Of a stretch of 37,267 bases of DNA, positions 15,924 through 37,267 are shown one piece after another; positions within the stretch are counted from its first letter, which is position 1; every line of letters begins with the position of its first letter. The notes under the pieces were generated by a model that saw only the letters and a list, made by a program, of their open reading frames with translations, searched no databases and was not told where the DNA came from. Where the stretch lies: the IMG/VR virus record IMGVR_UViG_3300022693_000766, positions 1-37,267 of that record, one strand, 5' to 3'. The stretch comes from a virus. Made by a program: the position numbers and the translations under genes.

Positions 15924-16124
15924 ATGAAGCGAGAACTAACACAGATAGCAAAGGTTGATATTTGTTGTCCTGGGCATGACAGCTACCCTTGCGATACTTA
16001 TCGAAACAATCGCAGTAAGAAAGCGCGGGCAAAGGGCAAGACTATAGAGCATAAGCTTGTTCGGACGATTAATAAGAGGAATTTAGCAAAAGAGTTAAAC
16101 AATCTTGATAATAAGAACGAATAG
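15924..16124 (+). CDS. Hypothetical basic early protein
   Basis: A 66-residue, strongly basic protein behind a TAGGAGGATTATAG ribosome binding site. It has a 'CCPGHDSYPCDTYRNNRSKK' segment with three Cys and one His, then Arg/Lys-rich helices, and could contact nucleic acid. The following promoter overlaps its last codons. Confidence 0.58.
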   Translation: MKRELTQIAKVDICCPGHDSYPCDTYRNNRSKKARAKGKTIEHKLVRTINKRNLAKELNNLDNKNE

Positions 16125-16133
16125 ATTTATACT
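16105..16133 (+). promoter_or_regulatory. Sigma70-type promoter reading into the structured intergenic RNA
   Basis: TTGATA (16105-16110) and TATACT (16128-16133) are separated by exactly 17 bases, each with one mismatch to consensus. A start near 16139-16141 would give an RNA beginning GGCTG, whose complement CAGCC lies at 16164-16168. The promoter overlaps the end of the preceding gene and has no gene within 500 bases downstream, which suggests a non-coding transcript. Confidence 0.6.
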
Positions 16134-16138
16134 TGTAG

Positions 16139-16660
16139 GGCTGATTTAATCAGTTAGGTTTCGCAGCCTACATAATATACAGAGTGAAAGAGTTTACACA
16201 TGTCGTTACTAACAAATTTTTCTCTGTAGGTTTATTAGACGCGATGACGACAGTTGTAAGCTCTTTTTTGTGCCTGTCGATAACCTTCCTGGTTAAACTG
16301 ATTTAGTGTTTATATGTGGTGGAGTTGATCGAAAAACCGGTCCGGTCGCGATGGAAGGCAGTTCTTAGCTAGTTCTGGTGTGTTCATCAAATGATTAGCT
16401 CCCCTTCATATAAACACTTCCTCAGATAGATGATATATCTTCCTTTCAGCTTTTCGATCCAGTTTATCGGTGTAACGAATGTTCGACTGGCTAGTTATCA
16501 AACTTTACCTATCGACGTAGGCTTATATAAAAATACTTGACGTTGGTAATAGAAGAGTAAAACAAGTATTGCTACAAATCTCAGCGGTGATCGATGAGGC
16601 TAATAGTGTGAAATACTCAATATTTTGGGTATAGGGCATACTATTATCTAACGGATTTAC
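16139..16660 (+). ncRNA. Candidate large structured non-coding RNA (about 520 nt)
   Basis: The stretch has no credible ORF in a genome otherwise packed with genes. It contains many long complementary arms. The main ones are: AAAGAGTTTACA with TGTAAGCTCTTT (16187-16198/16255-16266), continuing into TGTCGT/ACGACA (16201-16206/16247-16252); TAACC/GGTTA (16281-16295); AGTGTTTATATG with CATATAAACACT (16305-16316/16407-16418), backed by CTGA/TCAG; AATACTTG/CAAGTATT (16532-16539/16563-16570); and TAATAGTGTG with CATACTATTA (16601-16610/16637-16646) enclosing ATACTC/GGGTAT. A 9-bp crossing pair (16327-16335 with 16451-16459) would make a pseudoknot. A promoter precedes it and an HNH gene follows. I do not recognise a known RNA class. 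The 3' end is unknown. Confidence 0.6.
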
Positions 16661-16674
16661 AATAAGGCTAATAT

Positions 16675-17157
16675 ATGAAACATATAACTCAGGAATTAAT
16701 TAAAGAATTATTTACTTATAAACAAGGTAAATTGATTAGAAGAGTTGATAGAGGTAAAAGATATAAAGCTGGTGATATCGCTGGAAATACAGGTTTTAAT
16801 GGGTATAGACGAATTAGAATTAATGGAATTAGTTATTACACCCATCGATTAATTTGGTTATATCATTATGGTTACATGCCTAAATATCTCGATCATAAGT
16901 ACGGAAAGGAAATAGGTGATTATCTTTGGAATTTGAGGCCTAGTAGTCATTGTCAAAATATGGCCAATTCAAAGATGCCTAAAAACAACACATCAGGAAT
17001 AAAAGGAGTTTTCTTTAAACATGGCAGATGGCATGCAAGGATAACTCACGATCATGTTATTTATTATTTAGGCGGGTTTAAGAAAAAACGAGAAGCGGCC
17101 AGTATTGTTGCTAAAAAGAGAACAGAGCTACACGGCAAATTCGCCAATCACGGCTAG
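16675..17157 (+). CDS. HNH homing endonuclease with AP2 DNA-binding domain
   Basis: A 160-residue protein. Residues 57-98 hold the HNH nuclease core: H57 in 'THRLIW', D73-H74 in 'YLDHKYG', N86 in 'WNLRPS' and N95/N98 in 'CQNMAN'. Residues 108-155 ('SGIKGVFFKHGRWHARI', then 'YYLGGFKKKREAA') form an AP2-type DNA-binding domain. This pairing is typical of free-standing phage homing endonucleases, which spread by cutting DNA lacking them. Codon use is very AT-rich (many ATT/TTA/AAA codons) compared with neighbours, suggesting recent arrival. It sits directly behind the structured RNA region. The strand after 'DHK' lacks the usual Asn-Gly-Asp loop, but the key His and Asn residues are present. Confidence 0.85.
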   Translation: MKHITQELIKELFTYKQGKLIRRVDRGKRYKAGDIAGNTGFNGYRRIRINGISYYTHRLIWLYHYGYMPKYLDHKYGKEIGDYLWNLRPSSHCQNMANSKMPKNNTSGIKGVFFKHGRWHARITHDHVIYYLGGFKKKREAASIVAKKRTELHGKFANHG

Positions 17158-21976: not shown

Positions 21977-22147
21977 ATGAAAGTCAGACAAATGATACTT
22001 TTAGCAATGGCAACACATACGCCAATGTTAGCAGAGGCAGCACTAATTCAACATAGTCAAGGTATGAACGGCACAAAAAACGGGCATCGGTCTATGTTCA
22101 AGCAGAATCGAAGGGCGCAAATTAAACGAAATAAGCGCAACAAATAA
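21977..22147 (+). CDS. Small protein with very basic C-terminal tail
   Basis: A 56-residue protein. The first half is hydrophobic and Met-rich. The second ends in an Arg/Lys/Asn tail ('KQNRRAQIKRNKRNK') resembling RNA-binding arginine-rich peptides. In lambdoid phages short arginine-rich proteins such as N act in antitermination, but no boxB-like site was identified here. Behind a GGAGAATAAG leader. Confidence 0.55.
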   Translation: MKVRQMILLAMATHTPMLAEAALIQHSQGMNGTKNGHRSMFKQNRRAQIKRNKRNK

Positions 22148-22169
22148 CCCACAACAGGAGAATAAGAAA

Positions 22170-22448
22170 ATGAACGAAGCAATACAAGCAACAGGAATGG
22201 TCGAAACTTCTGAGGATAAACACACCTCATTAAATAGAGCCATAAAAGACATTCAAAACGTCTTAGACCAAGTTAACGCCATAAAAAGAAGGGTTAGCGG
22301 TGAAGATGGTCCACCAATAGCGGAGGTGGAAAAGATTCGAGATACCACAACACTTCTCGAAGTTCTTAACAGTGGCAGCACTAGGATTAACGATACGGTC
22401 AGCCAAATCCATCAATCATTAAAAGAGTTAGAAGAGGCGCTTTTTTAA
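22170..22448 (+). CDS. Hypothetical coiled-coil protein
   Basis: A 92-residue protein with two helices separated by a Gly/Pro turn ('SGEDGPPIAEVEK'). The C-terminal helix is acidic ('HQSLKELEEALF'). The leader GGAGAATAAGAAA is nearly the same as the one before the previous gene. It is the last gene before a structured intergenic region. Confidence 0.6.
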   Translation: MNEAIQATGMVETSEDKHTSLNRAIKDIQNVLDQVNAIKRRVSGEDGPPIAEVEKIRDTTTLLEVLNSGSTRINDTVSQIHQSLKELEEALF

Positions 22449-22464
22449 CAACCAAATAACCCAC

Positions 22465-22700
22465 AACACCCGCTTAACTGCGGGTAAGGCGGTACTAGCG
22501 TAGTGAGCGACACGCAGGTTACGATAAGAGTAGAGATAAGCTCAAGACCAACAGAGGATAAGCCAATGTAACGCAGGGGTAACGCCCATAGAGATAAACT
22601 AAGCGAGCCACAAACCTGTGAAACCGAAAGGCGGAGAGACCGTGAGCTTAAAGATTCTCCCTTATACCCCTTAATTGGGGTTTTCGGGTGCTACAGGTTG
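22465..22700 (+). ncRNA. Candidate structured intergenic RNA with pseudoknot
   Basis: The 326-base gap 22449-22774 has no gene. It holds ACCCGC/GCGGGT hairpin 22468-22485, CAGGTT/AACCTG (22515-22520/22613-22618), TAAGCTCA/TGAGCTTA (22537-22544/22643-22650, crossing the former), GGG/CCC (22576-22578/22585-22587), GGAGA/TCTCC (22633-22637/22656-22660) and a terminator-like ACCCC-TTAATT-GGGGT hairpin followed by TTT (22666-22684). AACCTGT (22613-22619) can instead pair with ACAGGTT at 22693-22699, giving two alternative folds. I do not recognise the family; it could be an sRNA, an attenuator or an untranslated leader. Confidence 0.45.
22666..22684 (+). terminator. Weak rho-independent terminator
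   Basis: A five-base stem ACCCC/GGGGT with loop TTAATT is followed by only three or four T residues. It lies at the 3' end of the structured region and may end the RecT operon transcript or work as a conditional attenuator. Confidence 0.45.
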
Positions 22701-22728
22701 ATATTTTAGTTACCTTTAGCAAATGCCC

Positions 22729-22756
22729 GGCTAGGCTGTTTTAGGCCAGCCTAGCC
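22729..22756. promoter_or_regulatory. Perfect 10-bp inverted repeat before an HTH gene
   Basis: GGCTAGGCTG (22729-22738) and CAGCCTAGCC (22747-22756) are perfect complements separated by eight bases. No T-run follows, so a terminator is unlikely. Its position 19 bases before a MerR-like DNA-binding gene fits an operator or an mRNA hairpin that limits access to the ribosome binding site. Confidence 0.55.
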
Positions 22757-22774
22757 AACTAAACGAGGGATAGC

Positions 22775-25627: not shown

Positions 25628-25656
25628 TTGAGATAATTCCCTCAATCCCTTATAAT
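25628..25656 (+). promoter_or_regulatory. Strong sigma70 promoter for the lysis/late region
   Basis: TTGAGA (25628-25633) and a perfect TATAAT (25651-25656) are spaced by exactly 17 bases. The start would be near 25663, about 34 bases before the first downstream gene. It is the best promoter I found in the genome. All genes on to the capsid terminator, through lysis, appendage and terminase genes, follow with few gaps. Confidence 0.75.
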
Positions 25657-25696
25657 ACACACTTCACTAATCAAGGTTAAGAATAATGCCAAGACA

Positions 25697-25858
25697 ATGC
25701 TTAAATTCACACTCAAAGATTCTGGGTGGGAAATCACAGAAAAGGGACAGATTATCTTTTCTGAGATCGAGACCATCGAAGAAGCTGTAGCAATTGCTAG
25801 AGTTTACGGCGGAGTGTTGGCAGAATTTCAAGACCTCAACTATTTAAAGGTAGCATAA
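25697..25858 (+). CDS. Hypothetical small protein, first gene after the late promoter
   Basis: A 53-residue protein ('LKFTLKDSGWEITEKGQIIF', then 'EEAVAIARVYGG'), a compact beta-beta-helix shape. I chose the frame from ATG 25697 over the ATG at 25686, whose frame ends after 34 basic residues, because this frame ends in a TAATG overlap with the next gene. Family unknown. Confidence 0.6.
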   Translation: MLKFTLKDSGWEITEKGQIIFSEIETIEEAVAIARVYGGVLAEFQDLNYLKVA

Positions 25859-36931: not shown

Positions 36932-37267
36932 ATGGCAGATACAGCAGCAGCGACCGGCTTAACGGTCCAACAGTGGGACGAGAAATTCTTCGTAGATTCT
37001 CTGAACGCTTCGATTTTCAAGCCTTTTATGGGCTCTAAATCCAATTCAGTGATCAATGTTAAGGAAGATTTAACCAAGAAACCTGGCGATTCAGTTACGT
37101 TCTCTTTAGTTAACGCTCTCTCAGGCAATGGTGTAACGGGATCGTCCACACTGGAAGGCAACGAAGAAGCTTTGATTACTCGTAGCCAGAAAGTGACAAT
37201 TGATCAATTTAGAAACGCGGTCCGTATTCCGGTATTGGAAGATCAATTCACAGCTATCCCATTAAGA
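36932..37267 (+). CDS. Major capsid protein, N-terminal part (N4-gp56/DUF4043-like)
   Basis: The first 112 codons of the coat protein, starting at ATG 36932 eleven bases after the scaffold stop. It opens 'ADTAAATGLTVQQWDEKFF' and 'NASIFKPFMGSKSNSVI', followed by 'GDSVTFSLVNALSGNGVTG', all characteristic of the N4-gp56/DUF4043 coat family. The frame runs off the right edge and continues at base 1 (37232 corresponds to 1) for a total near 363 residues. Only one gene copy exists; the two entries are halves of it. Confidence 0.9.
   Translation, partial: MADTAAATGLTVQQWDEKFFVDSLNASIFKPFMGSKSNSVINVKEDLTKKPGDSVTFSLVNALSGNGVTGSSTLEGNEEALITRSQKVTIDQFRNAVRIPVLEDQFTAIPLR
37232..37267. repeat. Terminal direct repeat, right copy (assembly overlap)
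   Basis: Identical to bases 1-36. When the two are merged the genome closes as a circle of about 37,231 bp and the capsid gene becomes intact. Confidence 0.9.

Follow-up and report, generated by a model that had tools for sequence, protein, structure and literature searches.

A structured RNA upstream of a phage HNH endonuclease gene as a probable reduced representative of an undescribed modular RNA family

A non-coding gap between two phage genes

The window, as the whole stretch of DNA analysed is called here, is a virus record of 37,267 bases that encodes a P22-type portal and a Terminase_6-type large terminase. The same VLEDQFTAIPLR stretch is encoded at both ends of the record (1-36 and 37232-37267), which suggests that the genome is complete and terminally redundant. 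A small phrog_5428 gene and a gene for an HNH endonuclease of 160 aa flank a non-coding gap of 550 bases (16125-16674), whose features are collected in Table 1. An earlier note on this DNA had described about 520 bases devoid of any credible ORF, placed behind a 17-spaced sigma70-type promoter and beside a homing endonuclease, and all three parts of that description hold. No credible ORF is found in 16125-16674, where the longest wholly contained sense stop-to-stop frame has 53 aa; the promoter is present, at the same distance as in the homologs treated below; and the HNH gene follows on the 3' side, reached by the RNA without a recognised terminator.

Table 1. Features of the gap in the window and of its two flanking genes
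Feature	Position	Strand	Remarks
Small phrog_5428 gene	15924-16124		5' neighbour of the gap
Promoter TTGATA-17-TATACT	16105-16133	+	sigma70-type, 10/12; predicted start about 16139-16140
Structured non-coding RNA	16139-16674	+	z -3.76 when folded from the predicted TSS; R1 81.8 bits on the + strand; 3' half can be aligned with L208
5' hairpin CUGAU/AUCAG	16141-16153	+	counterpart of GCUGAUCGUACAGC in the homologs
Pseudoknot helix a	16167-16230	+	CCUACA (16167-16172) and ACAGAG (16179-16184) can pair with CUCUGUAGG (16222-16230)
Helix b/c	16186-16269	+	GAAAGAGUUUACA/UGUAAGCUCUUUU, UGUCGUUA/UGACGACA, CUAA/UUAG; U-run at the end
Stalk B	16305-16418	+	AGUGUUUAUAUG/CAUAUAAACACU and GGAGUUGAUC/GAUUAGCUCC; variable tip 16331-16392
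Collapsed stalk C, AGAUGAUAUAUCU	16428-16440	+	window
3' hairpin CCAG/CUGG	16459-16490	+	CUAG/CUAG in L208; one pair changed on both sides
3' pseudoknot	16510-16570	+	UAUCGACGU/ACGUUGGUA crossing AAUACUUG/CAAGUAUU; window and L208
Hairpin AAUAGUGUG/CAUACUAUU	16602-16645	+	inner AUACUC/GGGUAU; shortly upstream of the HNH start; conserved in L208
HNH endonuclease gene, phrog_99	16675-17157	+	homologs HNH_3 and AP2; co-oriented, 3' of the RNA

Read as an RNA of the + strand, 16139-16660 folds at -153.2 kcal/mol, compared with -128.2 +- 6.1 for shuffled sequences (z -4.14, none of 100 shuffles being as good), and its reverse complement, the - strand, has a z of -1.81. Of 81 + strand tiles of 450 nt, the one at 16125-16574 deviates most, with a z of -6.5 (a rough value, from 16 shuffles and with the tiles aligned to start at 16125) and the next tile at -4.7. 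With 40 shuffles, 16129-16569 gives a z of -4.4, and the segment 16575-16674 one of -3.7. In a local scan of 200 nt the RNA region is not extreme, and the folding signal is therefore attributed to long-range pairing. The complementary arms reported earlier were also recovered, and include a 33-nt inverted repeat (16298-16330/16393-16425), TACAGAG/CTCTGTA at 16178/16217 and ATACTTGT/ACAAGTAT, among others. The outermost helix of the minimum-energy fold (16129-16136/16562-16569) probably does not exist: part of it falls within the promoter, and the homolog L208 favours the local pairing 16532-16539/16563-16570 in its place.

Two further stretches of the window fold well. The non-coding gap at 22448-22774 does so on both strands (z about -4), for which reason it is perhaps a DNA-level or symmetric element, and it has a 16-nt exact repeat in common with a stretch near 22141-22156. 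The stretch at 25651-25824, about 68% identical to L117:18521-18694, lies within a well-folding segment of the + strand (200-nt z -4.3) and overlaps a possible ORF of 53 aa (25697-25858).

A search against the 4227 families of Rfam gives no match to the window RNA at the gathering thresholds, and relaxing the limit to E=10 adds nothing meaningful. HNH genes of this type frequently reside in introns, and the element could on that account be a group I or group II intron that carries the HNH gene, or what is left of such an intron. This reading is extremely improbable, as no group I or II model matches even at E up to 10, and the element lies between separate genes, interrupts neither of them and has a promoter of its own. 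HEARO and IscB-type omega RNAs were likewise considered and rejected: Rfam gives no match to them, and the neighbour is a phrog_99 HNH protein where IscB or IsrB would be called for. Rfam int-alpA RNAs (RF02996) are found directly upstream of phrog_99-like HNH genes in L001:588-652, L002:1919-1983, L003:1869-1933 and L004:786-850. They resemble the window element in this position and in being followed by AATAAGGCTA, but have about 65 nt and a simpler structure, and RF02996 gives no match in 16560-16700 at E up to 10.

Relatives, neighbours and the 5' domain

In L117, a related phage found via RecT, a structured gap contains the helix known from the window, AGTGTTTATATG...CATATAAACACTT, which there closes a tRNA-like domain. 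The two arms of this helix with a free gap between them, used as a search pattern, gave matches in seven viral records and two genome contigs, and one of the contig matches (L205), located within a predicted coding region, was taken as chance. The family counts nine members: the window, L206 (G025), L207 (G026), L208 (G024), L209 (G029), L210 (G030), L211 (G027), L201/L117 (G028) and L212 (G031), that is, besides the window, seven phage records and one MAG contig, with metagenomic contigs prevailing. L208 can be aligned with the window along about 620 nt, a stretch that takes in part of the HNH gene; L209 has the promoter and the RNA start in common with it; and L210 is identical to it over 42 nt at the junction of stalks B and C.

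Other searches gave nothing of use: blastn of phages and plasmids with the window RNA as query, a search of phages with the 5' and 3' domains of L210, and pseudo-protein scans of viral contigs, the first of which was ill-suited to the purpose (stops were read as residues and could not be back-translated). None of the INPHARED cultured phages carries the RNA. A gap in L090 was discarded, as it looked like ordinary tRNA sequence. The portal of the window is absent from all seven viral records, some of which may be fragments, and RecT is present in three of them, which makes it probable that phages carrying the RNA differ in their head genes.

Structured gaps were also seen in phages with related portals. 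In G007, whose portal is 78% identical to that of the window, a 665-nt structured gap (L025:17960-18624, - strand, z -3.2) lies directly upstream of an HNH gene and contains a promoter and a U-run helix resembling those of the family, namely TTGAAC-16-TATAAT and a 20-bp helix ending in U7, and then GTGTCC...GGACACACCC. It possibly represents a diverged member of the family; the stalk model R1 does not match it, helix a is not significant there, and direct alignment with the window finds no sequence similarity. In G019, a 501-nt gap (L033:18240-18741) folds strongly on the + strand (z -4.9) and has no R1 match either.

An endonuclease gene follows the RNA on its 3' side in six of the nine members, which extends the association first noticed in the window. 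It is of the HNH_3 or phrog_99 type in the window, L208 and L206 (in the last with one small ORF in between), a T5orf172/MUG113 (GIY-YIG-type) gene in L207 and L210, and an HNH gene in L209. These different families indicate that the RNA does not go together with one particular protein. Among HNH relatives surveyed elsewhere, a long upstream gap is rare and is no general trait of the HNH family.

Taken alone, the promoter of the window is unremarkable, since its neighbourhood contains six such sites where 6.0 are expected. A sigma70-type site matching in 10 or 11 of 12 positions is present, however, in six of the seven members tested, its -10 element ending 4-7 nt before the start of the RNA, and at random positions a site of at least 9/12 occurs at such a distance in 2.4% of cases. 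Hexamers and spacing in L209 are identical to those of the window.

The RNA begins with a small hairpin, at which five other members carry an exact GCTGATCGTACAGCG and the window GCTGATTTAATCAG. It is followed by helix a, which would join an upstream strand to the loop of helix b/c in a pseudoknot. The arms of these helices were picked by eye before testing and were evaluated as hand-chosen segments against shuffled controls, because in a MAFFT alignment the 5' domains of the window and, in part, of L207 were misplaced. Helix a is re-formed with different sequences in seven members (best helix against shuffles, combined p 6.5e-6; the window alone gives p 0.16, and L209 alone is likewise not significant), and its nine-base arms are 100% paired within species compared with 35% between species. 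The longest helix b has 9-27 bp when each arm is given its own partner, with a mean of 20 bp, compared with a mean of 8.8 bp across species; it is strong in the window, and its U-run is kept in the members examined.

A long hairpin with a U-run, located close after a promoter and directly upstream of genes, could also be a 5' leader, in which the pseudoknot strand might switch the hairpin (in the members examined) as an attenuator or antiterminator for the genes downstream. This role is unlikely, given that the downstream genes differ among members, that the U-run can be part of a stem, with no terminator scored in the window, and that the stalks and their tRNA-like tips would be left unexplained.

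Stalks and tRNA modules

The compensatory changes on which the earlier note had made its proposal depend are present in the homologs. In stalk B, with 22 pairs and 97% pairing, nine pairs have changed on both sides (17 cells), a result reached by none of 500 shuffles. The 12 basal pairs are invariant among the primary matches because their exact pattern served to find the members; in L211, a second stalk has two compensatory changes within its basal helix. Compensatory change is seen in the distal helix of stalk B also in members whose tip is something other than a tRNA, and G-U wobbles of the sense strand are kept. The stalk model R1, whose training set includes the window, scores 26.4 bits on the - strand of the window, far below its + strand value. 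No ORF conserved across the relatives was seen, the stalk tips varying in both length and sequence.

Inverted repeats of 12 bp that flank variable contents, with endonuclease genes adjoining in six of nine members, might instead be a feature of the DNA, the stalk arms serving as the ends of mobile cassettes or as recombination sites spread by the neighbouring endonuclease. The sense-strand G-U pairs, the strand bias of both fold and model scores, the compensatory changes, the conserved promoter and the restriction of tRNA modules to the sense strand make this explanation very improbable.

Stalk C, formed by AGATGATAT...ATATCATCT around tRNAs or tRNA-like modules in L207, L209, L210 and L212, is collapsed to AGATGATATATCT in the window. 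In the 3' part, both crossing helices of the pseudoknot are re-formed in L208 with compensating changes, in a comparison of these two sequences only.

The statement that no tRNA is adjacent is correct for the window and does not extend to its homologs, which carry tRNAs or tRNA-like modules within the RNA itself. A strict scan found nine T-arms in six of the nine RNAs (three in L207, two in L212, and one each in L209, L210, L211 and L201), none of them antisense, where at most 0.01 would be expected per RNA; beyond these nine, the insert in L201 contains a further T-arm-like hairpin. The same scan found no recognisable T-arm in the window, L206 and L208, which implies that the core outlives the tRNA modules. 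Rfam, which on the homologs gives tRNA matches only, detects its tRNA model in L117/L201 and L204 (above threshold) and also in L199. Stalk C of L207 holds two canonical tRNA-Arg. With introns allowed, ARAGORN finds tRNAs in L207 (stalk A), L210, L211, L212 and L201 that bear inserts (34-92 nt, positions 32-40), and a weaker insert-bearing tRNA in L209 (position 25), some of these calls needing the pseudogene setting. Judging from their predicted structure, the insert-bearing modules keep acceptor and T arms intact and could hardly function in decoding. In L212 (12485-12601), a perfect T-arm (AGAGGTTCGAGTCCTCT) opens the tip of stalk B shortly behind the 5' stem, which gives the impression of a rearranged or permuted tRNA.

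The presence of ordinary tRNAs raises the alternative that the RNA is a structured precursor for phage tRNAs, in which the stalks are leader-trailer helices of a single transcript and the window carries a decaying member that has lost its tRNAs. The two tRNA-Arg of L207 agree with this, as do the several modules in which CCA is followed by the stalk, and the variable tips could be relics of tRNAs. It is nonetheless a rather unlikely account, because the window, L206 and L208 retain the core (5' domain and stalk B) with no recognised tRNA, because many of the tRNAs have inserts in the anticodon arm, and because the distal helix of stalk B covaries even with a tip that is not a tRNA.

A family of modular RNAs and its possible role

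Comparison of the sequences has shown a conserved promoter, a predicted pseudoknotted 5' domain with a U-run and one or more AU-rich stalks under compensatory change, and, in the relatives, predicted stalk tips that are canonical tRNAs, tRNAs whose anticodon arm carries an insert, or tRNA-like domains in decay, on the sense strand only. In the window, the promoter stands a few bases ahead of the conserved 5' end and stalk B has compensatory pairing; a tRNA or tRNA-like module on a stalk, which is a variable and dispensable mark of the family, is not recognisable there. That the window RNA belongs to a new family of modular phage RNAs is very likely. The suggestion that this might be a new large phage RNA is accordingly supported, with no Rfam family, compensatory changes and no conserved ORF seen; no description of the family was found in open PMC papers, and an earlier description elsewhere is possible.

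Several known RNAs have features in common with the family. In bacterial Y RNA (YrlA), a helix carries a tRNA-like module, as the stalks do here, but the window family is much larger and has several stalks, a phage promoter and a predicted pseudoknotted 5' domain; the comparison was made by Rfam only, and gave no match. Phage tRNA arrays with homing endonucleases also place tRNAs and endonuclease genes side by side; in the window family, in contrast, the tRNA modules form part of a covarying RNA that is retained in their absence. GOLLD is, like the present family, a large structured phage RNA associated with tRNAs, which it sometimes carries in its linker, and its conserved region is the 3' one (PMC12286853), whereas the conserved core here lies on the 5' side and individual stalks bear the tRNAs. 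ROOL is a complex pseudoknotted RNA of phages and prophages found near tRNA islands (PMC12286853); the window family is predicted to be pseudoknotted too, but its tRNA-like modules lie inside the RNA. The earlier judgement that the element is neither GOLLD nor ROOL stands, neither the window (E up to 10) nor its relatives having an Rfam match to them.

The explanation preferred here, which is considered probable, is that 16139-16674 gives rise, from its promoter, to a non-coding RNA that represents this undescribed modular family in reduced form, and that the family provides a scaffold for tRNA mimics. Taken by itself, the scaffold function is a tentative proposal. Based on the relatives, the RNA would present modules with intact acceptor and T arms and often no usable anticodon, and during infection these mimics might engage host factors that bind tRNAs, such as RNase P, EF-Tu, synthetases or the enzymes of defence systems that attack tRNAs. 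In the window, the tip of stalk B would have decayed and stalks A, C and D would have collapsed or be absent, leaving the core fold, and the HNH gene is probably a mobile passenger with the RNA as its 5' UTR. It is possible, if doubtful, that exchangeable stalks display tRNA-derived modules, many with an inserted domain in place of the anticodon loop, as decoys for host tRNA-binding enzymes or as a means of recruiting them, with a fast turnover of tips on a conserved frame. Two observations count against the tRNA-mimic reading: it is derived from the relatives, the window, L206 and L208 having no recognisable T-arm, and the two ordinary tRNA-Arg genes of L207 fit a supply of tRNAs equally well. 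Precursor and attenuator roles could both coexist with that of a scaffold.

To our knowledge, very few classes of large structured RNAs are known, and the roles of phage GOLLD and ROOL are still open. The family described here offers members with and without tRNAs for comparison and makes a direct connection between large phage RNAs and tRNA mimicry. Should the tRNA-like tips be decoys, the RNA would be an RNA-based device for counter-defence or host takeover; should they be cargo, it would represent a novel means for phages to carry tRNAs. The family may open a new view of the use that phages make of big RNAs.
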